64,000 nucleotides of DNA from Bolinopsis microptera (lineage: Eukaryota; Ctenophora; Tentaculata; Lobata; Bolinopsidae): assembly GCF_026151205.1 (NCBI RefSeq), contig NC_087084.1, positions 3,070,845 to 3,134,844 on the forward strand, written 5' to 3'. The notes under the pieces were generated by a model. It was not told the DNA's origin and did not search any database. It saw only the letters and a list, made by a program, of their open reading frames with translations. The translations under genes were made by a program, and so were the position numbers. Of this stretch, positions 3,801-41,799 are shown piece after piece (position 1 is the first letter of the stretch; every line of letters starts with the position of its first letter).

Positions 3801-5604
3801 AAACACATGATAAATTTCACACAAAAAACCCAACCAATCAAGTTTCGTAAATCAGACCACGTGACAGCCACCTGACCAATCACAATCAGCCGGCCCACCT
3901 TGACTAATACCTGATGTGTGGGAGTGTATGTGTAATTAGATAATGGGGTGTAATTAGATAATGGGGTGTAATTAGATAATGGGGTGTAATTAGATAATGG
4001 AGTGTAATTAGATAATGGGGTGTAATTAAATAAGTGTTCGAATCCAGCTCCAGAGAGTGAGAGCGTGTTAAATCTAACACTCAAATATCTGATATTTCGT
4101 GTACTTGTGACATCTGTCATATGTACAGTTTCTTACACCGGATATAGTGACAATAAACTAGAAACTACATCCTAGATACATGCATTCTTTATTCTCTAGC
4201 ATTCCATCTGGAGGAACTTAAATAATTTTACTTCTTAAGTTAAGGAACTTGATTAGTTAGGAACTTTATTGTGATATCTTCAGATTATCCTATTTAAATA
4301 TTTATACTTGGGTGAGGTGAGGAACAATACATTAAACGCAGTAGACTAATTATAATAGACTAGTAAACTAAATGTAGGCAGATTCTAGACATGAATGTAA
4401 CTAATCTCATAGCACCACATTTCTCACCGTCTATCTAACCACGTATCATCGAAGTTACTTGATTTACTCGCAATAAAGAACCATAAACACTTTAAACACA
4501 CCCTCTCACCTGTAACTTAAACTTACACTATCACCCGTAACCTAAACCAATCAAAACAATATTGTCACCTCATGCAACGCAATACAAAACACTACATGAA
4601 ACACACTTTAACATAGTAGTCACACTTTTACACTTTAACTCTCTCTCTTTTAATACACGATGAAAGAAAAGTGCCCAACTCGATCGCATCGTATTATAAT
4701 ACACTAAACGCTGCGTGTGACTTCTTCAAACGCTGTTGATAAGGCGCTGCTGCTGTGTAACACTTACTGACCTAGCCTTGTTTAATTATATAACTGATGA
4801 TGTCATCATGACGTCATACGTTACGTGATGTTACACAGTGGGGGGTATTGAGTCTGGGATGTCATTAGAACTTTATTGTGTAGGGGCCGGGTGTGAATTG
4901 TGTGAATTAAGTCCTAACGGCTGTGAGCTACCGGCTACAGGAACACTAGGACTACATTGTTAGAAATATAATATGTCATCTACATCTGCATCTGCATCTG
5001 CATCAGCTCTGTATTCGTGTTACGAAGGAGAGTACAGTGATATTTGTAAAATATCGACTTAATGAATTTTAGATATTCAATAAAACCCCAATTTACCACA
5101 ACCCAATTTACCCGGGGTGTTTCCTTCCCCAAAACTCCGTGGCGAATCGGATTTTACTGTACCAGCATTTTTCGAAATTCCAAAGCTTTAAAATACCAGA
5201 CATCGTTGCCTAAACACTAAAATGGAGTAGTAAATATTAGAGATGTTTGCCGGCCAACGACTGGCGAGTTCCGGAATAAATTTATAAACATTTTCTGTAT
5301 TACAGTAAACATAGTATAGTATAGGGTGGATTACTTGATGAAATATCAGAGTGTATACATGTTCTACATTCCAAGAGCCACAAGGCTGACCGTTAAAATA
5401 GATATGCTCTAATCTAGATGATACTTTTAGATGAGACGTTAAACATGAGATTATATGCTCATTTCGTGTGAGCTGTTGGAGAAATAGACATTTTCTTGGA
5501 TGTGTCTTAAAGACAAGAATTTTAACATTGCTTAGTAAATAATCTAAAGAATTGAAGAAAAAAACTTACTTCTATGAGGCTGATTTAATTAAGGGTCAAG
5601 ATTT
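865..5604. other. Repeat-rich region upstream of integrin exons; no exon recognised
   Basis: No exon can be assigned with confidence. The stretch contains several short tandem repeats (about 1197-1256, 1626-1680 and 1728-1805, a TA run at 2790-2813, CATCTG repeats at 4980-5008), a cluster of complementary segments at 3428-3520 (repeated ctttctcg / cgagaaag motifs), and a TGATGTCA/TGACGTCA pair at about 4798-4816. The missing 5' exons of the integrin gene (signal peptide, PSI and first hybrid segment) are expected here or to the left. Two Cys-containing candidates, at 2378-2449 and near 4892, were considered and not accepted. Confidence 0.5.
3931..4028. repeat. 18-bp tandem repeat
   Basis: Five to six copies of tgtaattagataatgggg. 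Translation on the minus strand gives a low-complexity peptide (NYTPLS repeated), which is a by-product of the repeat rather than a gene. Confidence 0.9.
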
Positions 5605-5663
5605 AACATATTTAACATATTTAACATATTTAACATATTTAACATATTTAACATATTTAACAC
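5605..5663. repeat. 9-bp repeat abutting a 3' splice site
   Basis: Six copies or more of atttaacat run directly into the acceptor (cactttcag, ending 5669) of the first recognised integrin exon. Each unit contains TTTAAC, which fits the animal branch-point pattern YTNAY. Confidence 0.85.
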
Positions 5664-5669
5664 TTTCAG

Positions 5670-8600
5670 GAGAGGAACGAAATATATCAGTAACGGTTAA
5701 GTCCTCTAAAGATTATCCTCTAGATGTGTACTATCTTATGGACTTCTCTTATTCTATGAAGGAGGATTTAACCAAGTTAAAAGAGTTGACTAGTAATATA
5801 AGTAAGTGTGTTTCCGCCTAGTACTACTAGCCTTTCATGATATTCCCATAATTTGTCCATAATTTTTGAACCGAAATAGAAGTGCATAAAATTGATATTT
5901 CCAGACTGATATTTGTCCATAAATTCTGAACTAATACATAGAAGTGCAAAATTTAGATGTTTCTTATTCATATTATAAGCATGTGATTATTTCAACAACA
6001 TTTTATTCCCGAGATAAGAATTTAAATACGAAAAATCCAAATGTTAAACCCTGATAGTACTATTTATTTGATTACCGGATATGATGATTTCTTTTCTTAC
6101 GCTTACTTTGCTTTAGTTGACAACTTGAAAGATATTTCCTCAAACTACAGTATTGGTTTTGGAACATTCGTGGATAAGCCCATCTCGCCCTACGCTAAAA
6201 CTGGTTAATATTTTTCTTTAAATCTAGATTAAAAAAAGTAAAAGCTTGCATTTTGCTGCAAACTCTTTGAAATACTTGAATTCGTAAGTATTTCTAAAAG
6301 ATATTCACTTTTTAAAACTCCTCTTAATACTTAATATCTTAGTTGCCAAAACTGAATTTTCACCCAAATTTGTTGCTCTCAAATTAATGGTAAATAAATT
6401 AAATTAATGAAAAATTAGATTAATGGCAAATAATGTTTGTTACTCAAATTAATTGAGCTCAAAGTTTTGGCACACAAATTTTTGGGAACTAAAGCATCCC
6501 AAATATTTCGTCAAAGTGAACGCACAAGCTGCTAATTTTAGAAACATTTAAAAAAGCAGCAGAGTTGAGATAGAAGTATGTCAGCTGTGAAGACTGCTGA
6601 GTGTGAAGTACCCCAGCTATGAAACCCTCAAAGTGTATACACTGTCAGTAGTTCAGTAGTTACCGTGCTAGGACACGGTTGTCGGTTAAACATTAAAACA
6701 ACCCATAACATGCTGCTTGTCTTCTCCTAGACTCTTCTAACTTTAAACTTATGTTATGTTTGACGTGTCTTGAGTGCAGAGCTGTGAACAATACAACACC
6801 TTCAAACTTTCAATTTTACCTATCGCAATATAACTTACTGAACATTGTTCATTGAACAGTATGAGCTAAGAGCTTGGAGTGTTACTTTACAGTTTACAGT
6901 TAAGCTTATAATATTGTTACAATGTATAACAGCGTTGTGATATGTAGTATCCTTGGCCTGCTAGTCAGTGTCTCAACAAATCGTACATAATCTCCGCTTG
7001 TTATTATGACAACGTGTTAGACAACATGTTGTTGGATATTGTCACTTCAACAGTGCTAGCCAATATGTCAAGATGACTTTGTCATTTATTTTACAATTAA
7101 TTTAAGCTGATTTGAATTATTAGCTTCATGTTGAATTAACGGGTCTGTAAAATTTCGAATAAAGAACATCGTGACCAGGGCTTTGTTAAAATATTCACAT
7201 AAAATTAAAATGTATCATTTTTACAGAACCAGGTCAGATAGAGAAGCCATGTGAATTGTGTCAAGCTGTACATTCCTTTAACCACGAAATGAGCATGACT
7301 TCAGGTGACGGTGCAACCGAGGCTCTCAAGGTATGGTTTAAAATATTTCCTTGTGTTTGCATTGAAATTAGTACTTAAATGTATATTATTGACAAGTTAT
7401 ATGCCCACTTAAATTAAGCTTTGTCTTATGAGGTAGTAGAATATTATTCTGTTTTATTGGACCATTGTATTACAATTATAAGACATGCCGCCTAGCATGT
7501 AAATCGCGCTTTGTTCTTGTGTAATCTACGGATTACAAAGGAAATGCGTCTAGTTGCTCCGTTCAAAATGTGCATTCGATGATTGAATTATCAGTAAACT
7601 TTAGATTCGTATTTATTAAATCGAAATCTCGCTTACAATAACATGAATATTATACCAAAAAAGTAGAATATAGTCAAGAAATATAATGATCTAATGATCA
7701 CCACTTCAAAAATCGTTTCATTCCTTCGATAATAGATTTCGGCTATTTGTATCGCAACATTATTTGAGATGAGGTACCTTGTATTAGATAAACGACCCTC
7801 TTCGGCCGTTTGGTGGAAGCACGATGATCGCAGGGAAGCTCTATATTACTCACTGTAGATATAACTTATGCTTTTGAAACCTCACAAATGCTGTCATACC
7901 GGTCGATTACGTATGCCTGGATTCAGTTTCATATATTGCGTGAGCGCGCGCCGTCGCCTAATGGTATACGCATATACAAAGTGCTGCGCGCGCCGCGCGT
8001 GTGTAGTTTCTTAATTTATAAATGTGATTAATCTGATCGATCAGGCGGCTTCGTCGTGGTCTTCTATGCATGGCGCCGAATATGAACAATAAACATGTAA
8101 GTTTCTCCCATACTACCGACCAAGATTGAACAATATATTTCTGCAGTCGAGGTTAAGCAGTTTGAGTATCTCTTCCAATGTGGACAACCCCGAGGGTGGT
8201 TTTGAAGCTATCGTACAGGCTGCTGTATGTTCTGATGTAAGTTGATAAAAAGCCTGAGTTCAGGTTAATTTAAGATTATGTTCGGAAGAAAAATCAATAC
8301 GAATTTATTGTTTTATAATTCAATGTTGTGTTTTACAGCTTATAAAGCAGTAATTTTAAATTTTGAAAAGAAAGCTTTAATTTAATTCTGTTTTCATCAT
8401 TTATGTTGTTAATGTTCCCCCCTAATTACTAATGTTACTTAATACTTATGTTACTTATGTTACTTATGTTACATATGTTACTTATGTTCACCCCCTCAGG
8501 ATATCGGTTGGAGGGACCCCGCTCGAAAAGTCATATTCTTCGCTACTGATGCTGTGTTTCACGTTGCTGGAGACGGAAAATTGGCGGGAATTGTTGAGCC

Positions 8601-9999
8601 CAATGAGGGGACCTGTGGAATGTCAAATAATAAGTACACTCGTAGTTTAAATCAGGTTAGTTATCCTACTGCAGTTATCATATGTTTATGAGATGTGTTT
8701 CCCAAATCATAATTTTAATTGTGCGAAAATCGTCCGATTTGTCTGGACATAATAAAATAGCCCGTCCAACGTTAGATCAACATGAAATACATTTTTGAGT
8801 GTACAAATTGGTACCAGCCACCAGGTGGAGCGAATAAATTAGCCGGGAACAACAAATAGTAGCATAATACTCCCCTGAACGTGATTAATGATCCTGTTTA
8901 TAGCTCAGTTGATTATTAAACCTATTTTGTCCAGGATTACCCTTCAATTGGCCAGCTAAACGATGTCCTGATAAAGAACCAGGTGATCCCCATCTTCGCT
9001 GTTACCGCTCAGATGCAGAATGTTTATCAAGAGCTGTCAGAACATCTTACCCAACTTTCATCCGTTGGTAAGAGCTTATTAGTCTTAATATAGTCTTACT
9101 ATGTAGCTTACTATTAGTCTTACCATAGATGTGGATTCTGGTGGGGAGGTGAGACGTATTTTTTTGACAGGAATATACCAATCTGCTTTCACTACAAACC
9201 CCAGAATTACTGTCATGTGTCAAAAAAAAAGTCTCACTTCCTTTCCAGAATCCACATCTATTAGTCTTACTGTGAAGTACAGCTTATTCCGAATGTTTGA
9301 TTAGGACTACTATTCAAATCACGATGCAAATTCAAAACATCCGTTCAATTCTTGACAGTATAACTCCCCATAATTTCCCGTCCATGAAATTAAAAGTAAA
9401 TAAAAAATTCATTCCATTCTAGGAAAGTTGAGCGACAACTCAGACGATGTAGCTAACCTTATCAAGGATCAGTTGGAGAGTATCGTATCCTCCACCCAGC
9501 TGAACCCTCAAGCTCCTCCCGGAGTTACAGTCACTGTGATCCCCAAGTGTGCTGGTGCACAGGTAAGTTGGAGAGAGGGTGGCATGTTCGTAAGTAGGAA
9601 ATACACGTTTACATAATAAGATAAAATCAAATACACGATTAAAGTAAAATCGCACATGTTTTATTTTGACACTCACGGTTATATAAGTCGCACGAGGGAG
9701 CTATTATATATGTGCGAAGGATATAGACTAGACTTTGCCAAATATTTTTCTTCAGAATTATGCGGTCTTTGTCAACATACTCAAAGTTCAGTTTTAGTTA
9801 TATTACATATATTATATACTACTGACTGAAGATAAAAACGTACTCTCCTTATAACAATACCTTTATTCAGACGGAAATGGTAAACGGACAGGGATGTTCA
9901 AATGTAACAATAGACGAGGAAGTTAGTTTCAGTATTGTAGTTAAGGTGGCCGAGTGTTTGTCAGAAGAGGAAGCTAACTCCTACAACTTTAACATTGAG
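5670..9999 (+). CDS. Integrin beta: betaI (vWA-like) and hybrid-domain exons
   Basis: Eight exons. Exon 1 (5670-5801) holds the DxSxS MIDAS motif as DFSYS with the following acidic ADMIDAS pair. 6117-6203 reads SIGFGTFVDKPISPY. 7227-7330 encodes the specificity-determining loop with a Cys-x2-Cys pair (PCELC). 8147-8236 gives NVDNPEGGFEAIVQAAVC, supplying the LIMBS Asn/Asp and MIDAS Glu. 8500-8655 gives IGWRDPARKVIFFATDA. 8935-9067 gives IPIFAVTAQ. 9423-9562 and 9871-9999 finish the domain and return to the hybrid domain (VSFSIVVKV). All metal-site residues visible in the family are kept, so ligand binding should be functional. Introns carry the repeats and an inverted repeat listed separately. 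Confidence 0.93.
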
Positions 10000-12900
10000 G
10001 TAATTAATAATTATCCTTCATCAGAACTCCTGTTTGCCATTTTTAAAACGCAGAATTAAAAACCAGAGCTTTTACGCCGCACATCCTGTAGTTTACCTCA
10101 CAAATTAATTAATATCCTTGGTTTTGGTCGATTTTTTCCCCAATGTTTATATTTAGTTTTTCACTGTCATTAACTACAATCGTGGTGGCACCCAATATGA
10201 AGGTCCATTATCCAATTATCCCATTATCCAATTATCCAGGTTCCCGGTATAGCTACTATCCCGATCTCTATTGACATGATCTGTGAGTGTCCCTGTGAAA
10301 AGGACGAGGATAATATAGATAAGGGATCTGATAAGTGTAACAGTGCAGGGGATCTGATCTGTGGAGCTTGTCAGTGTCATGCGGAGAGTTACGGTAAAAA
10401 CTGTGAGGTAATTATCTTGTTATTTAATGGTTTTTAATTGGGTTTTTAATTGGTTTGAGCACGTTCTGAGTATCTGCATCATATCTTTATTTCTGGAAAT
10501 AACTGGATATCAAGGTCACACCAATCTTACCTGCCATTTACTAGGCAAGTATCTGCTCGGGCATCAATCCGACTTATTAGCACCAAATTAATTAACCAAT
10601 CAGCAATTCCACTGACTCAACAACATATTGCTCCCTTTCAGTGTAACCAAACTAAAGACAAGAGCAAGGACAAATGTATTAACCCAGTTTCCGGAGCCAT
10701 ATGTGGGGGCGACAACAACGGAAAGTGTATTTGTGGACAGTGCGAGTGTATCCAACCTAGCAGAGACAATTACCAGAGATGGGGTAATGTGAACTGTTTC
10801 TTCCATCTATCTGTATTGGTCTGATAACAAAGACATACCTACTCACTGACAGACAGACACACCGACATAGCGAATGACTGATGACCGATAATATAGACTG
10901 ACAGATAGACTGACTCACGCAGATATCTTTCGACCGATAAAACTTTCTTTTTTGAGATCACGACAGAATGAACCTATTATAGCTGAATAAGTAATAAAAG
11001 CTCTGATAACCAAATTGCTGTAAATTGTTAAGTTTAGAAACATTCAATTCCGAATAATCTTGATGACAAGTCTTCCCAAATATAAAACAAAAATAAATTA
11101 ATTGTCTAATAAATTATTCACGTTACAGGAGAGTTTTGCGAGTGCAGTAACTACGAGTGTCCCCGTAATGAGGATAATCAGATTTGCTCTAATAACGGCT
11201 ATTGTTTCTGTGGAGATTGCGACTGTAACAAGACTGCTAATGGTTTGTCATGGGGTGGACGGCAGGGGGGTGGGGGTTTCACAATCTGCAGACCTCTCAC
11301 ATTGGATAATATTTATAATTTTCTTGTGATTAGCTGTTTTTGAAATGACCATAGCATAGGTAAAGTGAGGAAAGTGAGATATTGGTGTATTACATACTTG
11401 TTGTTAAGATCTTCTTATCTACACAACTCTCTGATCTTATATCTTATCTACTCTCTTATCTACTCTCTTATCTACTCTCTGATCTTCTCTCTTATCTACT
11501 CTCTTATCTACTCTCTTATCTACTCTCTTATCTTCTCTCTTATCTACTCTCTTATCTACTCTCTTATCTACTATCTTATCTACTCTCTTATCTACTCTCT
11601 TATCTACTCTCTTATCTACTCTCTTATCTACTCTCTGATCTACTCTCTTATCTTCTCTCTTATCTTCTCTCTTATCGTCTCTCTTATCTACTCTCTTATC
11701 TTCTCTCTTATCTACTCTCTTATCTACTCTCTTATCTACTCTCTTATCTACTCTCTTATCTTCTCTCTTATCTACTCTCTTATCTACTCTCTTATCTTCT
11801 CTCTTATCTACTGTCTTATCTACTATCTTATGTACTCTCTTATCTTCTCTCTTATCTTCTCTCTTATCTACTCTCTTATCTTCTCTTTTATCTACTCTCT
11901 TATCTTCTCTCTTATCGTCTCTCTTATCTTCTCTCTTATCGTCTCTCTTATCTTCTCTCTTATCTACTCTCTTATCTACTCTCTTATCTTCTCTCTTATC
12001 TTCTCTCTTATCTACTCTTATCTACTCTCTTATCTACTCTCTTATCTTCTCTCTCTGATCTTCTCCATTTCAGGTACCCCTAAGCAAACAACAGATCCTC
12101 AGTTTACAGGCAAGGATTGTGGGTGCCCTGTCTCTAAAGAAGGCTGCATCCATCCCGAAACTGGCATTGAGTGCTCTGGTATGTGACATTTATTGTTGAT
12201 ATAATATGACGATAGATTCCCTGAATTTTAAATATTGAATTGTTTACTTTCTTTTTAAATTGAAGGTGAAGTGTTGATTGCATTTTGTAATTGAATGGAT
12301 TTAATTGAGTTTGTTTGCACCGTGTTAAACACTACTCTACACTCTACACTCTACACTCTATATATTCAACACTCTACACTCTCTATATTCAACACTCTAC
12401 ACTCTACACTCTCTATATTCAACACTCTACACTCTACACTCTCTATATTTAACACTCTACACTCTACACTCTCTATATTCAACACTCTACACTCTACACT
12501 CTCTATATTTAACACTCTACACTCTACACTCTCTATATTCAACACTCTACACTCTATACTACACAGGGTCTACTAACGGTGAATGTGTGTGCGGGGAGTG
12601 CCAGTGTAAACCTGACCACTACGGCAAGTACTGTGATATCTGCCAGAACTGTGGTCCTCTCAACTGTACCCTATATCTGGATTGTGTGGAATGTGTCTAC
12701 GAGAAATTCGATGATGTGAGTATAGTAGTTGTGTGGTTGTAAGTGTAGCGGTTGACCGGTTAAGAGTACTCTTTTAAGTTTTAGCTGGTAAATGGCTTCC
12801 TGCTATAATAACATCAGCATAGGTCGATCTTGTGCCATATGGTCCAAATTTATGGTTAAAAATGTATGGTAAACTACCTTATTAAATGAAATTTTTACGA

Positions 12901-15857
12901 CACTTAATTGTGCGTCAAAATCGCACAAATTAAGCGAGCAAACATTAAGTGACGCATATTTAATGTGCACACTTATCAAGTTCGCAGACTCAAATTTACG
13001 GCAGTAAATTTTGCATCATACGGTACGATATATGTAATTTGGTTTTGTTAATCATTAGTGGTATTTGAGTTGTGGAGCTCGGCACGCCCTTTTCTTCGCT
13101 GGTATAACGAGAGCTTTATCTGCTGAAGCTCTCGTTATACCAGCTTGCCAACATTTGGATGAATCAAAAGAAATATTTTTGCAGATTTTACATAAATTAC
13201 TAAGTGATTAATGATTACTATAGTTACCGGTTACGTCGTTCCAAAGGTTATTGATTTTGTCATTGATTTAATTTTCTCATTGATTCACTGAAGCTCCAAG
13301 ACGATATTTCTAATCCTAGAGTAGAGATTTTTTTACCAGGATAAAGAAGCGTGGAGAAACTGTGAGTGTGATAAAAGTACGGTCCTTTCCAGCGACGAAA
13401 CAGTCGATACCACAAAACTAGGTTTGTAAATGTAATGTAATGTAATGTAATGTAATGTAATGTAATGTAAGGTAATGTAACTTAATGTAACTTAATGTAA
13501 CGTAATGTAACGTAATGTAACGTAATGTAACTTAATGTAACTTAATGTAACGTAATGTAACGTAATGTAACGTAATGTAACGTAATGTAACGTAATGTAA
13601 CGTAATGTTGTTCAAATTAAAACTCGTGATAGTGAATTATCCTGCGAATGTTTTAGAATATTTGGATATTTTGACATTGTGTAGTCGTCTCGTTTCTAAA
13701 ATTCCACCTTATACAGGTCGCCACAAGCAATGTGAGCCGATACCTTACGACGACAACTGTAACCTGATATACTTCCTTCATTACACGGATATGGGAACTA
13801 CCAAACAGCGCATCTTGGACGAGATCCTCATAGATAGGGAGCTAGGTAAGTTTAATGTAGTAATCTGGAGAACCTTGCCTTGAGAAAAGTATAGATGAGA
13901 TCCTATTTCTCATCTAATTTGCACGTGGGCGGTCGTACAGACAGACAGCATAAATAATTCTCTGAATTATAGTAGAGATACACGGATTATATCAAATTAA
14001 ATATGTAATGAATATTCCAGACCTAACGAGAAATTTCTCTCAGATTGTCCTTCGCAGCCTGATATTATCGCGATAGTTGCTGGCGTGATAGGTGGCATAC
14101 TTGCTGTGGGAATACTTTTACTCATCCTGTGGAAGATATACACTACTATTGTCGTGAGTTTATTTTCAATATGTTGTTTGTATTCAATGATCCATTTTGA
14201 TTTTTGAAAGTCCGTGAGTGATTTTTATTTTTTGTAATTATGTTTGATATATGGGCATTGGGCACCGTATTGGGCAAATTATTTAGTTATATTTCATACA
14301 ATATCTTTGTCGCATAGTAGCGGGGTAGTAAATACAGTGTTTCGTTTCGTTTCGTATACAATGCGCCGGTGCTTTTCAGTTATTACTGTATTTAGCGCTT
14401 GATTGATATCGATGTTTTATCACATTGTTCTTGGTAAATTCTTATCTCAACACAATGCAGGATAAACGAGAATATACCAAATTCTTAGAAGAGCGTTCCA
14501 AAGCAAAATGGAATACGGTAAGTTATCTGTTGCCTTGCTCTTTATTCTCAAATCGCGTATGGAAATTCTTTTCGCCTACCATTATATCCATCTTTAAATT
14601 AAAGTTAATTTTTCATCAATATGGTTAATACTGACAAGATAATTTTCTTCGGTTGTCCTTAAAATTTGTGGGATTTCTCACTGATTTTACAAGATTTCGT
14701 TAGTCACAGCTCAACAAAATTAGCCAACCCCGACTAAAGTTTTCTTTAAACCGACTTTCCATAGCAACCGAGCCTGATTTGATTAAGGGAAAGGCTCGAA
14801 AAGTTTTATTTTTGACGTGTACGAGAGAGAATGGTGATTATGCAATATGCAGATCTAATCGGTATAACTGTAAATATTTCGAGGAGTAATTTGCGCTGTT
14901 AAAATGAGACCCCCGCTACAGCCTATTTGTGTGTCAGCCGTGTAAAGTGTAAAGTTACTGATTTTAAGCATTTTCCATTTGTTGTGTGTAGTGTTAAAAC
15001 AGCGATCAGGCGAGTGCTGCAATTTCCGGGTAAAGCTCATTGTGATTAAGCTATAAGGTTATTACTATAATTTTGCTCCTCCGATAAAGAGTGTGCACAT
15101 ATTTTAGAAAAACAGCCCTGCAATTTTCACTTTTCTACACGTGACGTCATTCCTGACTCATTCTGACGTCATAACACATACAATGACGTCATAACACTCG
15201 TTATGACGTCATAACACATGCCGTGGTATATCCTTGCAGGACAACAACCCTCTCTACAAGAACCCCGTCACCCACTTCCAAAACCCGCTCTCTTCACGAT
15301 CTCCAAGTTTCGTCTACAAAGAACCTGCTAATTCTCCTCCTCCTTCCTCTCACCCCACCTCTCCAACCAACTCCGACACTGCCTTCGACTTCTCCCGCAC
15401 ATCTTCCTCTACAAACAATCAGTTACCGCGGCGGTACAATACTGGTGACTTTAACGATCACAAAGTGTCTCCGGTGAAGAATGCGGCACCCGTCGAAGAA
15501 AAAATAATAAACTCACCAAAACCACCTCCAGTAGAATCACCGCCAGACGATATCTCCACCTCTATCGACATAGCCTCCAACATTGGGGAATTTGACGATA
15601 TCCTGGGAGACATCCAAAGTACTCTCTCAAGAGACACTATCATTACCAACCCCAGTGTTGCTGGGGGACGTTTACCACCCCACCCACTACCATACAGTTC
15701 ACCGCACAGAGCAAGTCCTGCTTTACCACCAAGAGGGACCCCAGACGTCTCACCCCGTGCTGCTTTACCACCTCGTGCACATAATCCCCACACCCTGCCG
15801 TTAAGAAGGAGGGACTCGAGGGAGGGACAGGATGGTTACCTGGAGTCTAACTTGTAG
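5670..15857 (+). CDS. Integrin beta subunit gene (partial at 5' end), main body with tail A
   Basis: Integrin beta is the adhesion-receptor subunit that pairs with an alpha subunit at the plasma membrane and links extracellular matrix to talin/kindlin and actin. Exons read from GT/AG junctions with matching phase: 5670-5801, 6117-6203, 7227-7330, 8147-8236, 8500-8655, 8935-9067, 9423-9562, 9871-9999, 10240-10407, 10642-10783, 11129-11242, 12074-12178, 12567-12715, 13340-13421, 13717-13845, 14044-14153, 14461-14517, 15240-15857. The first exon carries YYLMDFSYSMKEDL, the betaI MIDAS signature; later come a VDNPEGGFEA LIMBS/MIDAS segment and FFATDA. Four cysteine-rich I-EGF modules, a beta-tail, a TM helix and a juxtamembrane KFLEERSKAKW follow in family order. 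The N-terminal exons (signal peptide, PSI) were not found. Two further terminal exons at 16828 and 17797 are annotated separately. Family assignment is secure; exact ends rest on reading splice sites by eye. Confidence 0.95.
8430..8488. repeat. 10-bp repeat abutting a 3' splice site
   Basis: About five copies of ttatgttact just upstream of the acceptor at 8499 (caccccctcag). This is another intron whose 3' end is built of tandem units. Confidence 0.8.
9127..9259. mobile_element. MITE-like inverted repeat in an integrin intron
   Basis: The ends agatgtggattctgg and ccagaatccacatct are perfect inverse complements. Inside them a second complementary pair, gtgagac with a T-run plus gaca on the left and tgtc with an A-run plus gtctcac on the right, extends imperfect arms to about 43 nt around a 45-nt loop. 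Copies of ctattagtcttac lie on both sides and could be a target duplication, although that phrase also recurs locally. A short non-autonomous DNA element is the simplest reading. Confidence 0.7.
10240..12715 (+). CDS. Integrin beta: I-EGF 1-4 exons
   Basis: Five exons (10240-10407, 10642-10783, 11129-11242, 12074-12178, 12567-12715) encode four cysteine-rich integrin EGF modules, shown by repeated CxCxxC groupings such as CECPCEKDED, ICGACQCHAESYGKNCE, CICGQCECIQ, CFCGDCDC and CVCGECQCKPDHYGKYC. This is the number found in bilaterian integrins. The stretch ends with NCGPLNCTLYLDCVECVYEK, the start of the beta-tail domain. Two of the introns here are almost entirely minisatellite. In the family these modules form the rigid leg that extends on activation. 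Confidence 0.92.
11440..12062. repeat. 12-bp pyrimidine-rich minisatellite filling an intron
   Basis: About 50 copies of ctctcttatcta with variants (ttct, gtct, gatc) occupy the intron up to the acceptor at 12073 (tctccatttcag). Long open frames across it (YLLS and SLIY repeats) are repeat artefacts. Every unit is pyrimidine-rich and includes CTTAT/TCTAC, which match the loose YTNAY branch-point pattern. Confidence 0.95.
12332..12557. repeat. 30-bp minisatellite abutting a 3' splice site
   Basis: Seven or so copies of a unit made of aacactctacactctacact plus ctctatattc, running to within ten bases of the acceptor at 12566 (tactacacag). It is pyrimidine-rich on the coding strand of the integrin gene. 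Confidence 0.95.
13098..13144. repeat. Perfect 19-bp hairpin in an integrin intron
   Basis: The left arm gctggtataacgagagctt (13098-13116) is exactly complementary to the right arm aagctctcgttataccagc (13126-13144) across a 9-nt loop. It lies in the intron between 12715 and 13340. It could be the remnant of a palindromic element, a structured RNA, or an intronic stem-loop; nothing else in the sequence decides between them. Confidence 0.85.
13340..14517 (+). CDS. Integrin beta: beta-tail, transmembrane and juxtamembrane exons
   Basis: Exons 13340-13421 and 13717-13845 finish the beta-tail (CECDKSTVL; CNLIYFLHYTD). Exon 14044-14153 encodes the single transmembrane helix, IIAIVAGVIGGILAVGILLL followed by ILWK, which has the GxxxG-like small-residue spacing used in alpha/beta TM packing. 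Exon 14461-14517 is only 57 bp and encodes DKREYTKFLEERSKAKWNT, matching the conserved juxtamembrane segment in which the Asp forms the inner clasp with the alpha subunit and the Trp helps bind talin. It ends in phase 0 (acg|gtaagt), exactly the phase with which each of the three alternative tail exons starts. Confidence 0.95.
13431..13607. repeat. 5/10-bp repeat starting at a 5' splice site
   Basis: tgtaa units and then cgtaatgtaa units begin about 8 bases after the donor at 13422 (ctag|gtttgt) and run for about 180 bp. Each unit contains GTAATG or GTAACG, which look like weak donor sites. Confidence 0.9.
15142..15211. promoter_or_regulatory. Cluster of four CRE palindromes and one AP-1 site
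   Basis: TGACGTCA, the full CREB/ATF palindrome, occurs at 15142-15149, 15164-15171, 15184-15191 and 15204-15211, and TGACTCA (AP-1) at 15154-15160, all within 70 bp and ending 28 bp before the tail-A exon. The repeats are partly tandem (gtcataacac phrases), so they could have spread by duplication. Position inside an intron suggests an enhancer or internal promoter; the sequence does not prove either. Confidence 0.55.
15240..15857 (+). CDS. Integrin beta alternative last exon A: long proline-rich cytoplasmic tail
   Basis: Acceptor tatatccttgcag ends at 15239; the exon starts in phase 0 and stops at TAG 15855-15857, giving 205 residues. It opens with DNNPLYKNPVTHFQNPL, so the membrane-proximal NPxY (talin/PTB site) is kept, but the distal NPxY expected about 12 residues later is NPLSS. 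The rest is rich in Pro and Ser (PKPPPVESPPDD, RAALPPRAHN) with possible SH3 or WW ligands, and has no similarity to ordinary integrin tails, which are about 45-60 residues. It follows a CRE/AP-1 cluster. A possible polyadenylation signal AATAAA lies at 16448-16453. The frame is open throughout and the NPLY anchor confirms it is coding. Confidence 0.88.
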   Translation, partial: DNNPLYKNPVTHFQNPLSSRSPSFVYKEPANSPPPSSHPTSPTNSDTAFDFSRTSSSTNNQLPRRYNTGDFNDHKVSPVKNAAPVEEKIINSPKPPPVESPPDDISTSIDIASNIGEFDDILGDIQSTLSRDTIITNPSVAGGRLPPHPLPYSSPHRASPALPPRGTPDVSPRAALPPRAHNPHTLPLRRRDSREGQDGYLESNL

Positions 15858-16827
15858 TATTTTGTGAGTGCAGGAATGCTGCTTTGGGTAAATATTTCTT
15901 ATTTAATATCATGCAATCTCTTTGCAGTTTGGTTTCACGTTTGTGATGTTGCTTGATCTACCGGCAATAATAAGGACCGTAGTGTTTTTTCGAACGATAA
16001 AGTCATTTTGGCGCGGAGCTTTTTAAATTTACGACATAGGGCGAGGCTTTGGCTTTTATTGATAGCACTTCTCCGTTCCATATTATTGCCGTTGCTTATA
16101 TTCAGTTCTGTGCTTGGATCCTACTATACAATGTTCTGCATTATAAATGTTTTAATGTCATCTTAAAATAGTCTTATGAAAATAGTTTCAAGCTGTTTAG
16201 CATGCTTTGCTACGTCACAAAACCATCTTTTTGTTTGCCAGAATATTCCCAAGCGTGGCTTCACTGGTGCACAATTCTGCTTTTTTTTTCAAGCTGAAAA
16301 TGTTATTCGGCTGCTAGACTTCAATATTTCCAAGTAAATATAGTTTTATTCGCTTTCAACTTCACCCAATCTTCCCATTACAGTCTTTGGTGATGTTTGG
16401 TTATTATTTTTACATTTTTCACGAGCTCCAGCAACTTTTTTTTCTAAAATAAAACGGGTTATGTATCAGTATATCCCGATCCGTTTTAATCTTGAAAAAA
16501 ATGTTAGCTGACTATGTTTGAATTGTGCGCCAGTTTTTCTTATGAGTATTGCATGACAAAAAATTAGTTATTATTTTCTTAACCGGGTTGCTATGGAAAT
16601 GTACGGCTATACTGTGAATTTGAATAAAAATTGGGAATTCGTTGCGCGAAAATTTAAGCTATGAAGTGAGAATGAAACGAACTGATCTAATAACCTGATC
16701 GAAAATCATGTCCAATGACAATCTCTTGTTGATGACACCACATGATTGATAAACCAAGTTTTCTTACAATCAATCATTTTGATAAAGTAATTAATTAATT
16801 AATTAATCGAGTCTAATTAATAATCAG
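15858..16827. other. 3' UTR of tail A / intron before tail B
   Basis: No coding potential seen. It probably holds the 3' UTR of the tail-A isoform (AATAAA at 16448) and the end of the intron leading to tail B, whose 3' end contains an AATT run at 16788-16805 and the acceptor aattaataatcag. Confidence 0.5.
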
Positions 16828-16899
16828 GGTCTGTCTCCCTTGTACAAAGAACCAACTACCAAATACACTAACCCTGCTTACTCTGGAAAGCTTATTTAG
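16828..16899 (+). CDS. Integrin beta alternative last exon B: canonical short tail
   Basis: Too short for an ORF screen, but unmistakable: the exon begins after taataatcag (16827), in phase 0 as tail A does, and encodes 23 residues, GLSPLYKEPTTKYTNPAY followed by SGKLI and TAG. This is the classic integrin tail end: TT followed by NPxY, the kindlin-binding arrangement, is intact, while the membrane-proximal NPxY has become SPLY. Spliced onto the exon ending at 14517 it gives a tail of ordinary length. AATAAA at 17386-17391 could end this transcript. Confidence 0.9.
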   Translation, partial: GLSPLYKEPTTKYTNPAYSGKLI

Positions 16900-17796
16900 T
16901 AGGTTGTAGAAACCCTCTCACCCCCCATTGAACTCGTAGCATGTTGCTTACTGAAATGTTATTTATATTATTGCACGGTAATTGTATTGGTGGGTTACCA
17001 GGAGTGGACAGAAAATTGTTCCTCCTAGTTCTACGTTACGGGACAGTGATGTTCTGTAATTGTGATGTAGGAAAATATGGAATCAGATTAGATTATTTAA
17101 CGAGATTATTTGCCATTTTTATTTCAGATTCCAAGACAGATTCAAACGATAATTAGGGCCTTTTTCAATTGTAGCATTATCTCTACGATTTCCAATTATA
17201 AGATTATCAGGCCGATCCTGTGCACTTTTTAAAGTTGTTAACTGTCAAATTGGCCTAGAAATGATTTCACATTTAATTCCGCAGATTACATTTTTAGTAA
17301 CAACTGATAATTTATTTGATATATTCAGTGATATAATGTTAGGAACATTACACCTTCATGAAATATTAAATACCATTGAAATTATAATAAATACCTAAAG
17401 TATGCTCGAAGATAGTTTTTAAGGTTGCATGAGCTTAGTGATACGTTCACCAAACGCACGTGCGTACGTACAATATGCATGAAAGTGCTGTAGTATTGAT
17501 ATAAACAGTATGTAACACCTCTACAAATGGAGCTTGTAGATCTAACTTCTTCGCTGACTTATCCAGAATGCTGTTATGAAAACTAATAATAATTTTATAT
17601 CTTGCAATGGCGAATCCTATGAAGATGCTCTTGGATATTTATCTCATGGTGAATCGATTGTGCACCATGAACAGTCGATATCCTTGCTGTTTCGATTAAC
17701 ATTCTGAAATAAGAACTAGCTGAATATTAAAATTAACAGTTTTTAAGTTTTGCGAAACAAATACAAATCCAGCAGCTAACCCCGTTATCCCTGCAG
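16900..17796. other. 3' UTR of tail B / intron before tail C
   Basis: No exon recognised. A small open frame at 16941-17156 has no family resemblance. A possible polyadenylation signal is at 17386-17391. The acceptor of tail C (cgttatccctgcag) closes the interval. Confidence 0.5.
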
Positions 17797-17874
17797 GGTT
17801 TGTCCCCTCTCTACAAAGAACCAATGACAAAGTACACTAATCCTCTTTACACTGCCGCTGCTTCTAGGATGTAG
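17797..17874 (+). CDS. Integrin beta alternative last exon C: second canonical short tail
   Basis: The exon begins after ccctgcag (17796) in phase 0 and encodes 25 residues, GLSPLYKEPMTKYTNPLY followed by TAAASRM and TAG (17872-17874). It is clearly a duplicate of exon B (GLSPLYKEPxTKYTNPxY in common) with a different C-terminus. One Thr of the TT pair is Met here, which may alter kindlin affinity, and the distal NPxY is NPLY. Conservation of frame, motif, start phase and acceptor indicates a functional alternative exon and not a dead copy. Confidence 0.9.
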   Translation, partial: GLSPLYKEPMTKYTNPLYTAAASRM

Positions 17875-18875
17875 GAACCTATAATTATTATAGGACTCTT
17901 CTCTCACACACACACTTATCACGTGACATTGGGTGAACTGGTCTTATGGTCTGAAAGTATCACACACACACACACACACACACACACATAACTTGTATTT
18001 ACCAACGAGGGTTACGTGTTTTGCAACCTGATATGTATAAGGTGCTTTGTGACGTCACAGTGCAATTCAGATCAATTTATTCTCTGAAGAATAGTTGTGC
18101 TGATATAAATAGCTCTGAGGGTTGAATAAGTTGAATAATGTTCTGGTTATAACAAGTTTTCGAATTATTTTAAAAGTCTCCTAGGTTGCAATCACACAGC
18201 AGATAGAAAAATTTTACACAAAAATCTGATTTTTTGTTTCTAAATCCGCTTTAAGCTAGTTTTCACACTAATTTACACTAGGAATTCTCTAATGCAGTAT
18301 GTTTAACTATGTGGTCTGTGACCGCATACATTCTATTGAGAGGAATTTTTACATTTTTACTGTTTTTACTGGTTCTAGAGATGATCACATGAACATGCCA
18401 ATATTTCTTTGATAATTAATTAGTCGGCTATTTAGTCGACTAATTGCTCAGCTAATTGGTGAATTGATTAGTTATTATAGCTCTTGCAGTAAAACGAAAG
18501 CTCAGTTCTAATGCATTTCCTGCTTGTGAATGAGTTGACAGAATTTAATGCCATGATTTTACATCATTATCAATTTTATGTTTTATGTTTTGCTGTTTAA
18601 ATTATGATATTGTACGTTTTAATGTTTTAAAAGAAATGCTAGATATATGTGTTCAAAGTTGGTGCTAAATGATAGCTTATATGTTTAGCCTTATTTTGAA
18701 TTTTAAGTTTATTACAAGTGTAATATAAACCGAAAGCTCTAAAAATGTGTGTCTAGTTCCAGAAAGTCTTCTAATTTTACACATTTTGTGTAACACATTC
18801 TAATTTTACACAATTGCTTTAAAAATGAAAAAACGCAGGTTATTTGTGGTTCAATATGATCTTCATGCGATTAAA
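17875..18875. other. Intergenic, downstream of integrin gene
   Basis: Contains a CA microsatellite (17961-17988) and otherwise AT-rich sequence with no exon seen. It separates the plus-strand integrin gene from the minus-strand lectin-like array, which begins with repeat unit sequence at 18876. Confidence 0.6.
17961..17988. repeat. CA microsatellite
   Basis: An uninterrupted run of 14 CA dinucleotides. Confidence 0.95.
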
Positions 18876-19303
18876 CGCGGCAATAACTATTAACAATAGT
18901 AAAAATATTAAGTTTAACAATGTTTATTTTCTTATCATTTCCAGTTGGGTGAGTTCCAAATTATTTAGTCAATAAAATTGTGTTAACATAGGTATAGTAT
19001 ATTGATATTGTTATTGAAAATAACATCGGTTCTTTCTTTCTGCATTAATTCCTATCAAACTGGTACAAATGAGAGCTAGAGGGGCTGGGGATGAACTAAA
19101 ATGGTATAAATGTCAATTTTATTGATCAAGCAAGGTCAGGTGGCTCTTGAAATGTTATTATATACACCCTGTATATTATATCGCTATTTCTATATCGCTT
19201 ATTAGTTATTATGGTCGATTTTGAGTCAAAACTTCTCGGAAATGGTAATTGTCCAGTTTCAAAATATATCTTCTCCAACATTTTCAGTGGCATCGTCCTG
19301 AAA

Positions 19304-19881
19304 CCAAGGTTGTTAAATACGAATTACGAGGGAATACGTACTGGAATACGAATACGTATTAATTCTCGAAAATTGACGTATTACGAAAAGGTGTGTCGTG
19401 CGCGCAAAAAATTGTTTGCTTTGTACAAGGAAATCACCTGCTTTCACGTGGTTTGAATCATCCAGAACCCCGCAGTTCACTGCCAGAGCACATGATCTTC
19501 ATAACAATTGCATTATAGGAGTGCAGTTTTGTGTAATTAGACCGTTTAATTTAAGTTACTTTCGTGTTAGAGTAAATTTTAGTTATCTTTGAATCGATTA
19601 TCGATATAGAAACAAAGTTGAAACTCTGAAATTAAATGGGGAAATAAATGTCGTGCACTCCTTTAAATTTATAATGCATGATCAATGATGAGGGTGGCGC
19701 GCAGCTGTAATGACCTAATGTTTAATTTTGAATTTGACAAATCAGCGTATTATGGCGTATTCGTGGACGTATTTAACAATCCCTAGAAATTACCGTATTA
19801 CGGCGTATTACGACGTATTCTTTATTAGAACCGAATACGTCGTATTCTTTCACGAAAATTTGACGTATTTAACAACCTTGG
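19304..19881. mobile_element. 578-bp element with 18-bp perfect terminal inverted repeats
   Basis: The ends ccaaggttgttaaatacg and cgtatttaacaaccttgg are exact inverse complements. The interior is full of short copies of TACGTATT/AATACGTA and TGACGTATT near both ends, forming subterminal inverted arrays, and has no transposase. The homologous place in unit 2 (about 27811-27880) lacks the element but contains about 70 bp that unit 1 has lost, so insertion was accompanied by replacement or deletion. Non-autonomous DNA transposon is the likely nature. Confidence 0.8.
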
Positions 19882-21129
19882 TCAGAAGTATGTCTGGTCA
19901 CTGATGTAACATGTCAATTTTATATTTTTGGAGACAACACTGAACAATCAAAGTGAAAACGAACAGCTGTGACATTTAACTAAAATCTATTAAATCAAGT
20001 CGATAACACTGCTCAGTAATGTATAGATGCTTTTACCGCTTTACTTTTAGTTGTTAGTTAAAAGGAAAAATCTTTTGAGCCATTGCTTGATCATAAAAGG
20101 GGGAAAATAAATTTTACCCATTTTGTTCAGATAAGAACCATGCTTACTAAAAGAAAAAGTTGTCTTTAAAATTGATATGATTTTCGAAAAATAATAGAAA
20201 AACAGTGTCTAAAATGACAAAGTTCCCTGCTCTGTGTAGTAAACAGAATTAAAACAGCTATTATAACCGTCCATTACTCCATTAATAGCGAAGTGTGGTA
20301 ACTATGGACTAGTATCAGGAGAATGTCCATTGCCACAGTTGGTCTTGATCTTGTCAGTTACATGATTAAGGAGCTCAATCACCTCTTTAGTCATCGTAAC
20401 ACCCACCATCTTCCCTGAAATAAAGAAATGTACAAACTTTAACATATCTTTGTTCTTTGTGATGATGACCTGGTTAGTGTTATATTAGAATTAGTTAGTG
20501 TTATATTAGAATATATAGTTATAAGTTCATTGTACTAGACGTTTAATCTATTGCAGGTTTATTAACTACCATAGCATTGCTCTAACCAGAGCCCTCTCGC
20601 TTGCAGTAGCGCGCGACCGCCGTAGGCAACTTGTGAAACAAGTGACAAGCGCGTCACGCAGTACGCGTATACACATGGCTTTGTGAAACCATAGCACATA
20701 CGCTTGTCATACGTTGTTATAGACCTGCCGCGCGGCTGTATAGTGTATCGTGGCCACTTATAAGTCTAGTGAAATGACAAATACAATGGGGGTCATGACG
20801 TGATACAAGTGAAATACAACCATAAGCATAACCAAGACGTGCACCGTATCACCCGTAAAGTTATACTTATCTGCTGGGAAAATATTAAAGCTTATTCCAG
20901 CCTTGAAGTAAAACCAAATTGAATCAAATGTTAATAATAACCACTGATGCCATCCCAGATGTTTGTTAATCTCTTGGCCATGTTCCTCGTGAAAAGTTTG
21001 TCTATGTAGTTCTCCGAGTACAGCATCAACCAGGATCTGTTTTCAACGGAGTCAAACAGGTCCAATATTTTGATCAACTTATCTGTGATCGTGTATCCCA
21101 CCAGCCACTCTGAAATAATTTGTTATTTA

Positions 21130-24059: not shown

Positions 24060-25480
24060 AATTTAGTCTGGAAAAGATCTCATCCCGCTTCCTGTCACCT
24101 TTTTCTTTGTCTTTTGTGACTCCTCTAGCTCACTGATAGTAAATTTAGCCTTGTGTTGACATCCTCAAGCTCTGTCTCCATCGATCTTTGTTCTTTTGTG
24201 TCTTCCTCTAGCTCACTGATAGTAAATTCAGCCTTGTGTTATATCCCGCAAGCTCTGTCCCCTCCCAATCGTATCTTGTTCTTTTTGTGTCTCCTCTAGC
24301 TCACTGATAGTAGTAATTCAGCCTTTTGTGTGACATCCTCAAGCTCAGTCTCCATCGTAATCTTTGTTCTTTTAGTGTCCTCCTCTAGCTCACTGATAGT
24401 AAATTCCTCCTTGTGTTGATATCCTCAAGCCTGTCTCCATCGTATCTTTGTTCATTTGTGTCTCCTCTAGCTGCACTGATAGTAGAATTCAGCCCTTGTG
24501 TTGATATCCTCAAGCTCTGTCTCCATCCGTATCTTTTTTCGTTTTGTGGTCTCTCCTAGCTGACTGAACGTAGAATTCAGCTGTGTTGACAACCGCAAGC
24601 TCTGTCGTCCAATCGTAACTTTGTTCTTTTGTGTCCTCATTCTAGCTCACTGATAGTAGAAATCAGGCCTTGTGTTGACATCATCAAGCTCTGTCTACCA
24701 TCGTATCTTTGTTCTTTTGTGTCTCACTTGCTCACGATAGTTGAATTTAGCCTTGTGTTCACATCCTCAAGCTCTGTCTCCATCGTATCTTTGTTCTTTG
24801 TGTCTCTACTTAGCTCACTGGATAGTTGAATCTAGCCTTGTGTACACACCTCAAGCTCTGTCTCCATCGTATCTTTGTTCTTTTGTGTCTCTTCTAGCCA
24901 CTGATAGTAGAATTTTAGCTTTGTGTTGACATCCTCAAGCTCTGTCTCCATCGTATCTTTGTTCTTTTTGTGTCCTCTTCAAGCTCCCTGATAGTAGAAT
25001 TCAGCCTTGTGTTGACATCTTCAAGCTCCGTTTCCATCGTATCTTTGTTCTTTTGTGTCTCTACTGCCTCACTGATAGTTGAAGTAGCCTTGTGTTGACA
25101 CCTCAAGCTCTGTCACCAGCGTATCTTTGTTCTTTTGTGTCTCTTTTAGCTCACTGATAGTAGAAGCAGCCTTGTGTGACACATCAGCTCTGTTCCATCG
25201 TATCTTTGTTCTTTTGTGGTCTCTTTTTTAGCTCATGATAGAAGAATTTCGCCTTGTGTTGACATCCCAGCTCCGTTTCCATCGATCTTTGTTCTTTTGG
25301 TGTCTCCTACTACTCACTGATAGTTTGAACTTTAGCTTTGTGGTTGACATACCAGATTACGGAATAGGGGGGAGTCATCCATCGGATCTTTATTCTTTGT
25401 GTCTCCTCTATCTCACGATAGTAGAATCCAGCCGTGTATTGACATCTTCAAGCTCGTTTCCATCTCATTTTTTTCTCCTC
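24060..25480. repeat. 84-bp coding repeat array, about 15 units (copy 1)
   Basis: Units of about 84 bp recognisable by the recurring tcaagctctgtctccatcgt phrase, at spacings of 81-87 instead of a constant 84 because of indels. On the minus strand a whole unit codes for METELEDVNTRLNSTISELE plus ETQKNKDT (28 residues, four heptads). Confidence 0.9.
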
Positions 25481-26492
25481 ATGGGTGACCTCTAGCTCAG
25501 CAAGAGTGGCGTTAATTTTAGCTGAGAGCTTCTCCTCCATCTCGTCTTTTTCTGACCGAATGTTGTCTAGTTCTTGTCTGGAGCCCACCAGTTCTTTAAC
25601 GGTTACAAACACAATTTTCCTATGCTGGAACTGTTTATTAATCATACTAACATATTGAACAGCACATTCCTCTACATACATGTTGGTGGCTGCACCGCTC
25701 CTCTCCAGTTGAACCAGATCTTCCCATTTTATAACTCGTGATGCCTCATTCTCATCTTCCTCTGCGACATGAGCACACATTCCTTTCTGCACCATTCTAG
25801 CTATCTCACTGGAAGTCAATTCTTTGGAGTAAAAGTTTAGGTACATCATTTCTCCCCCAAACCTGTCGTTACCTCCTTCCCACATTCCCACTCCCAGTCT
25901 TAGTTTCCCTCCGGTACTTAGTGATCGACCTGATCGCGTTTGCTGCGATCCGATAACTTTCCCGTTGATATAGTATCGATGCTCTCTGGACGACAGACTC
26001 CACGTCATACAAGCTAGAAACCAAGTGCCTTCTGACACAGGGAACCCGCTGTTAAGTTGTTGAAATGCACTGAAGATGCCAGTGAAATATCCATTTGCCA
26101 TCATTACCAGCTCACTACTGTGGTAGCTAAAGATAGTAGGGTAGAAGAATGACCCCAAGTCTTTAACCCACACACAAGCAGAGAAAGCAGTGGTCAGACG
26201 GCTCCAATCGGGATACGAATCAATATAAGCAGCATTAACTGTGTCAAACTTTATAGCTGTCATCTTCAGGAGAGTCTCTGTGGTCCCGAGAGATGGCACG
26301 ATCAGCAGACTTAAAATGCTAAGTAACAAGAACATGATCTAATATCAACGAACGAATTGTAATGGTGTACGTTAGAAATGGTAGGTTTAGAGGGATCTGT
26401 CCAGTGTCCACGCTGCTAAGTTCTGAAGGACCCTATAAATTTCGTTAAATTTGCATCTGAGTAATTACAGATAAGAATATACTGTCCTGAAG

Positions 26493-26636
26493 ATGACTAG
26501 TGCTTCGGTGGAAGGAAGCGAAAACATTGAAAGCGGGCAGACTCATGCAACAAAAAATATTACTGTTGCTAAGTTTAACGGGATTACAGATTATAAACTT
26601 CATTTATCTCCTATTCATTATTTGTGTAATTACAGA
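26493..26636 (+). CDS. Small divergent ORF upstream of lectin-like copy 1
   Basis: A 47-codon frame starting MTSASVEGSENIESGQTH and including VAKFNGITDYKLHLS. It diverges from copy 1, beginning 158 bp from that gene's ATG on the other strand. The same frame, with only a few substitutions and no indels, is found upstream of copy 3 (35174-35317). A gag-like first-exon fragment (compare the LNGxNY start of some retroelement gags) or a bidirectional small gene are possibilities; function unknown. Confidence 0.3.
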
Positions 26637-27390
26637 TAAGAACATATAAGCCCTGAAGGTTACTAGCTCATAAATGGAAGGAAGTGGCAATGCAACATTT
26701 AAATTGGTTCAATGTCATGAAAATTTAGTACCTCCATTTACGTTCACATATTACGTAATCAGCCGATTATTTGACAATATTTTAATTCAAATTCCACTCG
26801 AAAAAAGTCAAGGGGGGGGGGGGGGGGTCTATCAAACAACTTACTCTTTCATATATTGTGGTTTGTTACCCCTTTATTCCTGGTAACCTTGGTAACTTAA
26901 ACGCTAACAGCAGCTAACTATAGATAAGAGACACAGGATAATGGTTGGTAATCTTTGACTCCTGTTACATGTTAACCAATAGATCGGTCCTTAGAGTTAG
27001 CCGTCCGATGTCCATAATTTGATCAATCGCTCGCAGTTTAGGCTATTTAAATTAGGTAAATTTTTTCATAAACTATACGGTCTCGAAGATCCTTGATTAA
27101 TTTCATTCTATAATTGTTTCAAAGTTTCAATAAAAGATCGACCCAACGACAATATGATTATGATCTCTAAAATAAAAAGATCAGCATTTAATTCTTCATG
27201 AAGTGGTCCACTTCAAGTGGAATTCAGTAAAAAATTCGTGATGATATAATTCTTACAAAATGTGTATATGGAGATTAGAGAGAAAACGAATAGCTGTGAC
27301 ATTTAACTAAAAGTAAAATCTATTAAATCAAGTCGATAACACTGAGTACAGAGTAATGTATAAATGCTTTTACCGCTTTAGTTGTTAGTT
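26637..27390. other. Spacer between lectin-like units 1 and 2
   Basis: Contains a 16-G run (26812-26827) inside a segment beginning attacgtaatcagccg that recurs upstream of copies 3 and 4, and an 80-aa-or-less open stretch starting MEGSGNATFKLVQCHENLV that looks like a partial duplicate of the small ORF at 26493. The whole spacer is shared with 35330-36060 and partly with 42000-43100. Confidence 0.5.
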
Positions 27391-28289
27391 ACGCGGCAAT
27401 AACTATTAACAATAGTAAAAATATTAAGTTTAACAATGTTTATTTTCTTATCATTTCCAGTTGGATGAGTTCCAAATTATTTAGTCAATAAAATTGTGTT
27501 AACATAGGTATAGTATATTGATATTGTTATTGAAAATAACATCGGTTCTTTCTTTCTGCATTACTTCCTATCAAACTGGAGACAAATGAGAGGGGCCAGG
27601 GCCGATGAACTAAAATAGCATAAATGTTAATTTTATTGATCAAGCAAGGTCAGGTGGCTCTTGAAATGTTATTATATACACCCTGTATATTATATCGCTA
27701 TTTCTATATCGCTTATTATGGTCGATTTTGAGTCAAAACTTCTCGGAAATGGTAATTGTCCACTTTCAAAATATATCTTCTCCAACATTTTCAGTGGCAT
27801 CGTCCTGAAACTTGGCAGACACAACCTCAACATTATTTAGAGAAACTCTGTTTAGCCAGAATTTTGGTTGCGTCAGCAGTCAGAAGTATGTCTGGTCACT
27901 GATGTAACATTTATATTTTATATTTTTGGAGACAACACTGAACAATCAAGTTGAAAACGAACAGCTGTGACATTAAACTAAAATCTATTAAATCAAGTCG
28001 ATAACACTGAGTAATGTATAGATGCTTTTACCGCTTTAGTTGTTAGTTAAAAGGAAAAATCTTGTGAACCATTGCTTGATCATAAAAGGGGGAAAATAAA
28101 TTTTACCCATTTTGTTCAGATAAGAACCATGCTTACTAAAAAAAAAGTTGTCTTTAAAATTGATATGATTTTCGAAAAATAATAGAAAAACAGTGTCTAA
28201 AATGACAAAGTTCCCTGCTCTGTGTAGTAAACAGAATTAAAACAGCTATTATAACCGTCCATTACTCCATTAATAGCGAAGTGTGGTAA

Positions 28290-41773: not shown

Positions 41774-41799
41774 GATTTAATATCAGCGAACGAATTGTA

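Follow-up and report, generated by a model that had tools for sequence, protein, structure and literature searches.

Integrin beta subunits with alternative tails are best known from vertebrates. Here, we describe a 64,000-nucleotide stretch of the Bolinopsis microptera genome (NCBI RefSeq assembly GCF_026151205.1, contig NC_087084.1, given below as C13; C13:3070845-3134844), called the window in its full length, that carries one integrin beta subunit gene. The 3' end of this gene is probably a terminal cassette of three homologous tail exons (A, B, and C), each of which would be joined singly to a juxtamembrane (JM) exon. Positions refer to the window unless a contig or locus is named (Table 1), and genome-wide searches covered the 264.65-Mb assembly (232 contigs). 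The matches listed in these searches all fell on contigs numbered C1 to C13. When two ionotropic glutamate receptors of this genome were compared with the PDB, the best match was the Mnemiopsis receptor ML032222a for one and a kainate 2 receptor entry for the other, consistent with a ctenophore source but not decisive.

Gene structure

The gene is that of one integrin beta subunit, identified by exons matching PF00362, a DFSYS motif, EGF modules, and a hydrophobic membrane segment. Within the window, PF00362 (beta I-like domain) gave five exon matches above its cut-off; the match at 5708-5857 crosses three stops, i.e., it extends into an intron. DFSYS was read in frame, and DxSxS is the MIDAS motif (PMC2397394). 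Ten further exons (9423-9562, 9871-9999, 10240-10407, 10642-10783, 11129-11242, 12074-12178, 12567-12715, 13340-13421, 13717-13845, and 14044-14153) follow, with Pfam scores of 60.2 bits for EGF_integrin, in three stretches, and 23.9 bits for I-EGF_1, below its cut-off of 26.1. The transmembrane helix is the hydrophobic stretch IIAIVAGVIGGILAVGILLLILW, identified by eye and in frame with the tail. Integrin_B_tail, the Pfam model of the membrane-near beta-tail domain, was absent from the Pfam matches up to an E value of 1, though the stalk is encoded in frame; the missing match may reflect divergence or model error. The introns at 11437-12060 and 13430-13610 are packed with simple repeats arranged in tandem, which resemble CTCTCTTATCTA and AATGTAACGT.

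Tail exons

The anatomy of the three tails, the compatibility of their frames, their homology, and the constraint on B and C are borne out by the sequence. All three exons start in phase 0 after an AG, finish in a stop, and contain no internal stop, and in the splice model the eleven exons between 9423 and 14517 (JM exon included) join in a single frame into each of them. The JM donor, gtaagt, is the best scoring of the 350 GTs in 14451-20400. On the joined tails, PF08725 (Integrin_b_cyt; cut-off, 23.4 bits; 44 positions) scored 67.1 bits for A, 70.2 bits for B, and 67.1 bits for C, covering positions 1-42 with JM+A and 1-44 with JM+B and JM+C; tail A taken without the JM exon reached 19.0 bits, under the cut-off. 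JM+B aligned with integrin beta-3 (2kv9) without gaps over 47 residues (E value, 1.3e-12), Ser replacing the Asn of NPLY. A sequence-only reading of the window had ended the JM exon at 14517 and followed it with three phase 0 tail exons ending in stops, coordinates that proved exact, base for base; that these belong to a single beta subunit gene and are compatible with one upstream splice site, as it also proposed, is supported by the in-frame model and by PF08725 on each tail.

Table 1. Positions of the features of the integrin beta gene, its tail exons, and the paralogous tail exons on contig C10
Feature	Position	Strand	Remarks
MIDAS-type motif exon (DVYYLMDFSYSMKEDL)	5543..5821 (open frame)	+	Beta I-like domain, part of PF00362; DFSYS read in frame
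Ten exons: integrin EGF modules, membrane-near stalk, transmembrane helix	9423..14153	+	In-frame splice model
JM exon (DKREYTKFLEERSKAKWNT)	14461..14517	+	Ends ...KWNT; direct reading, splice model; donor gtaagt is the switch point
Tail exon A (DNNPLYKNPVTHFQNPLSS...)	15240..15857	+	205 aa and stop; NPLY kept, distal NPxY is NPLS, 187-residue Pro/Ser-rich extension
Degenerate LD-like motif FDDILGDI	15591..15614	+	Tail A residues 118-125; no helix is predicted in the tail except here (119-125, at low confidence)
PALPPR, class II SH3-ligand-like	15717..15734	+	Tail A residues 160-165; not above chance for composition (P = 0.17-0.40)
GTGAGT donor-like site (ttt/GTGAGT)	15864..15869	+	Begins 6 nt after exon A's stop; ninth best of 350 GTs
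Tail exon B (GLSPLYKEPTTKYTNPAYSGKLI, then stop)	16828..16899	+	SPLY and NPAY motifs, TT between
Tail exon C (GLSPLYKEPMTKYTNPLYTAAASRM, then stop)	17797..17874	+	SPLY and NPLY motifs; duplicate of B
C10 tail exon (SPIYEKPITVHTNPLFVKD, then stop)	L019 5042-5099		Codon completed in phase 2
C10 tail exon (SPIYKKATTIHSNPLFPVPETDL, then stop)	L019 6164-6233		Codon completed in phase 2

The first 18 residues of A align one to one with B and C (8/18 and 9/18 identical), and A and C differ over these 18 codons by 25 bases and 9 residues (P = 0.003). The long proline-rich tail opening DNNPLYKNP that had been read at A stands in its length and Pro/Ser-rich composition, amended by an 18-residue core common to A, B, and C. 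B and C, already taken for clear duplicates in that reading, share 16 of 18 residues, and at the DNA level they resemble each other within the exon only (16825-16885 versus 17794-17854; 79%; E value, 6e-10), the similarity starting three bases upstream of it and stopping four bases after the distal tyrosine codon; the other matches between their flanks span just 10 to 35 bases with E values of 0.02 or worse, i.e., chance level. Over the 18 codons, 12 nucleotide differences cause 2 residue changes (dN 0.12, dS 1.17), where 7.4 would be expected if the changes were placed randomly (neutral P ~1e-4). By these measures, B and C are old duplicates constrained at the amino acid level, with synonymous sites near saturation. 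No fourth tail exon was found by acceptor-motif or two-motif scans (window positions 1-20500) or by a seven-tail profile run over the whole window; as this profile was made from tails already found, only its absence of further matches is informative.

Beyond the core, 31 Pro and 27 Ser lie among the 187 residues of the tail A extension, which is predicted, at low confidence, to be disordered (AlphaFold without alignment; mean pLDDT, 53.4; single helix at 119-125). Pfam gave no match on tail A beyond the PF08725 core. In FDDILGDI, the four LD positions are all hydrophobic and positions +1 and +6 are Asp, as in two kinds of FAK FAT ligand, LD motifs of the paxillin type and the P3 motif of DCC. 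Unlike paxillin-type motifs, FDDILGDI fails the strict LDXLLXXL pattern, which has no match anywhere in tail A, and a PDB sequence search returned no LD-motif protein among its relatives, giving three matches to viral spike constructs (E values, 0.15-2.4). A relaxed pattern matches at 118-125 (shuffle P = 0.011, the pattern having been picked after viewing the sequence). FDDILGDI as a putative LD-type recruiting helix is a lead; DCC offers a model in its disordered, Pro-rich receptor tail, which recruits FAK via a short helix (PMC5818605, PMC7703752). SH3-ligand motifs in A were rejected as a signal, being at chance level for this composition (P = 0.17-0.41).

Four TGACGTCA palindromes lie at 15142..15211 (+), the last three spaced 20 bp apart and the cluster ending 28 bp before exon A. 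The window holds seven such palindromes against 0.85 expected, and four of the seven are these. The palindrome is CRE-like. The cluster is possibly a short tandem repeat; it is also conceivable, as a guess, that it acts as an intronic regulatory element for exon A and forms part of the control of the cassette.

Docking motifs

In beta tails, the proximal NPxY is the docking site of talin F3 and the distal NxxY that of kindlin F3 (PMC10716038), and NPXY/F has been called a prerequisite for talin binding (PMC6450878). None of the three exons encodes the canonical two-motif tail (proximal NPxY/F and distal NxxY/F): the distal motif of A is NPLS, the proximal motif of B and C is SPLY, and each exon is one letter short of the pair. 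With its distal tyrosine gone, A should lose or weaken kindlin docking, and with NPLY kept, it should retain talin. Talin docking by B and C is uncertain and may be weak. SPxY is the proximal motif in seven of the eight tail exons found in the genome (6/7 when the two near-identical C13 copies described below are counted once), A alone having the canonical NPxY; SPxY therefore looks like a lineage trait rather than a loss and may be the norm of this lineage.

Candidate partners gave partial matches in the genome for talin (50.0 and 46.4 bits), kindlin (26.2 bits; 34/89 positions), and FAK FAT (27.1 bits; 40/133 positions; one archaeal control also matched, below the cut-off). The paxillin search (PF03535) found no match in the genome, but it found none in the control either.

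Paralogues and neighboring features

PF00362 located six integrin beta loci in the genome (at least 17 exon matches), and a seventh was recognized solely by its tail region. Five of the seven have one or more tail exons, and two of those five have more than one; the loci with a single tail exon each are that on C7 and the copies at C13:2.95 and 2.99 Mb. The second gene with several tail exons is a paralogue on C10 (L019), whose JM exon ends KWNTTQ in phase 2. Its two tails are identical at 13 of 18 residues, with 15 base differences and 5 residue changes in 15 codons (P = 0.005; dN 0.21, dS saturated). Tail pairs taken across the two genes are identical at no more than 10 of 18 residues. Since pairs within a gene are closer than pairs between genes and the phases differ, the duplications look independent, and the C10 paralogue apparently owns a separate, independently duplicated tail pair. 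Constraint on B and C, together with a second gene with duplicated tail exons, argues that such cassettes are functional.

The copies at C13:2.95 and 2.99 Mb are inverted integrin beta gene ends lying 45 kb apart, ~95% identical over aligned pieces, that encode an identical tail peptide (TQSPLYNSPITYVDNPIARKM). A close paralogue at C13:14.13 Mb (L023 5572-10000 and L034; C13:14.15-14.16 Mb) has a clear transmembrane exon, and JM and tail exons were not found in the 14 kb downstream of it; the stretch after the transmembrane exon holds runs of 21 to 50 C or G and may be poorly assembled. An NPIY exon in a gene on C8 was rejected as a tail (nonsignificant match; E value, 2.8).

Elsewhere in the window, tandemly arranged relatives of one secreted-looking protein, four or more in number, occupy the minus strand at 25448-41776; the protein has a LamG/pentraxin-like part at its N terminus (named by eye), and at least three of the relatives have repeated coiled-coil-like segments (open frames, by eye). 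Inside this array, a 747-amino-acid open frame (36536-38779, minus strand) has the look of a Penelope-like retroelement, with a reverse transcriptase and a GIY-YIG-like C terminus (by eye).

Discussion

We infer the use of the tails in RNA, the control of splicing, and the choice of partners as follows. An ancestral NPxY exon would have given rise to A, B, and C by tandem duplication, and one of the three would be spliced to the JM exon at a time, so that a single ectodomain, with its membrane and juxtamembrane helices unchanged, would be fitted with any of three inner tails. In B and C, the tail would have two motifs, SPLY in the proximal position and an undamaged, kindlin-type NPxY in the distal one. 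A would bring talin-type docking, with that of kindlin lost or weakened, and may offer its long disordered extension to other partners.

Several observations weigh against this reading. B and C have SPLY where NPXY/F has been described as required for talin (PMC6450878), and the two are so similar that differing outputs between them are not evident. Their acceptors are mediocre by the small matrices used: with an 18-site matrix, 2, 25, and 20 of the 353 other AGs in 13001-20500 beat the acceptors of A, B, and C, respectively, and with an 11-site matrix, A ranked 6th, B 11th, and C 73rd of 360 AGs. Lower acceptor scores at B and C than at A would fit a gene that uses just one or two of the exons and keeps the rest as relics of duplication, but this is unlikely given an amino acid sequence of B and C kept at a dS of 1.17 and three exons that all follow an AG without internal stops. 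The mostly synonymous differences between B and C and their nonalignable flanks argue against a dead duplicate and also against allelic copies. Two alleles of one exon assembled in tandem might be suspected in an assembly with near-identical inverted copies (~95% alike) at C13:2.95 and 2.99 Mb; we give this almost no credence and have discarded it, as the B and C flanks align only by short, chance-level matches and a dS of ~1 is far above the 5% divergence of those copies.

Exon A raises its own doubts. It has no homologue elsewhere in this genome, the sole match being itself, and its residues 1-130 show no coding signal in synonymous codon use, measured against the upstream exons of the same gene and three glutamate-receptor frames (537/1000 controls reach the score of residues 1-60 and 478/1000 that of residues 61-130). 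These points, with the low-confidence disordered prediction and the Pro/Ser-rich composition, would suit a functionless chance open frame behind a degenerate short tail. We find that improbable: the 205-codon frame was stop-free in only 6 of 4000 dinucleotide shuffles, G+C content steps up at the exon edges (0.51 in exon A versus 0.37 upstream and 0.335 downstream), and codon use, which stands out for the whole exon (P = 0.001), does so by part in residues 131-205 alone, whose score none of 1000 controls reaches.

A (perhaps also B) may instead be a stop-containing cassette exon, whose inclusion would give a tail and a stop and leave B or C as 3' untranslated sequence and whose skipping would join the JM exon to B or C; control would then lie in exon inclusion and not in poly(A) choice. 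Vertebrate beta1 exon D is controlled by exon inclusion. Such an exon A would span 15240-15863 (624 nt, phase 0 to 0), bounded by the GTGAGT site just past its stop, for which the chance of an equally good donor within 10 nt is ~0.015. Under the mammalian rule, by which a stop within 50 nt of a junction escapes nonsense-mediated decay, the transcript would be spared. Poly(A) hexamers were rejected as a mark of separate last exons, occurring in chance numbers after each exon (observed versus expected, 2 versus 2.4 after A, 3 versus 2.0 after B, and 7 versus 7.0 after C; one AATAAA also lies within the coding sequence of A, at 15506), and their chance-level frequency between the exons lends no support to separate last exons. 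The donor is, however, just moderate, eight other regional GTs, including the JM donor, scoring higher, and B has no good donor closer downstream of its stop than GTAATT (rank 4 of 350), 78 nt away, a distance that would invite decay by the same rule. We regard this arrangement as a genuine possibility that we nonetheless lean against. The claim of three alternative last exons made in the sequence-only reading is supported for three tail exons compatible with one splice site and is less secure in calling A a last exon.

A terminal cassette joined one exon at a time to the JM exon, which we continue to favor, has precedents in vertebrates. Human beta1A and beta1D share their tail sequence up to and including KWDT and part at the residue after it (PMC4068353). 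Both keep NPxY; beta1B arises by retention of an intron stretch and beta1C by inclusion of exon C (PMC3412830). As in vertebrate beta1, one beta subunit would have alternative tails, and the switch after KWNT in the window gene coincides with the divergence of beta1A and beta1D after KWDT. Unlike in beta1, the alternatives would be homologous exons in tandem, three in number, of which two are near-identical and the third carries a 187-residue extension. Vertebrate integrin beta4 also has tail variants, and its long tail carries fibronectin type III repeats. Like beta4, tail A exceeds the usual length; unlike beta4, it yields nothing in Pfam beyond the PF08725 core and is predicted, at low confidence, to be disordered. 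Both precedents had been named when the exons were first read; the beta1 variants are documented (PMC3412830, PMC4068353). Alternative beta tails as such are already known (beta1A-D, PMC3412830), and what appears new is the probable ctenophore three-exon cassette and the pair in a second paralogue. Among the best-ranked papers of text searches in the open-access literature, with subscription papers mostly outside their reach, no title or abstract opening described ctenophore integrin tail variants. Bolinopsis Iso-Seq has been made (PMC10232365).

In a bolder version, which we think rather unlikely as a whole, the exons would split the docking sites, A having the sole canonical talin-type NPxY among the tail exons found, with no kindlin site, and B and C combining a kindlin-type site with a talin site that has degenerated. 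The LD-like FDDILGDI helix, set in a Pro-rich scaffold, would let A recruit partners of the FAK/vinculin type by itself. One receptor could thereby be switched by splicing between a tail for kindlin-dependent adhesion and a tail for self-contained signaling, an arrangement that would have evolved more than once in ctenophores, at the residue used in vertebrates.

If the cassette is real, the KW[DN]T boundary would be a recurrent switch point of integrin output across animals, occurring in two genes of an early-branching animal and at the same residue in human beta1. Tails A, B, and C would then amount to a natural separation of talin and kindlin sites, one that is directly testable.

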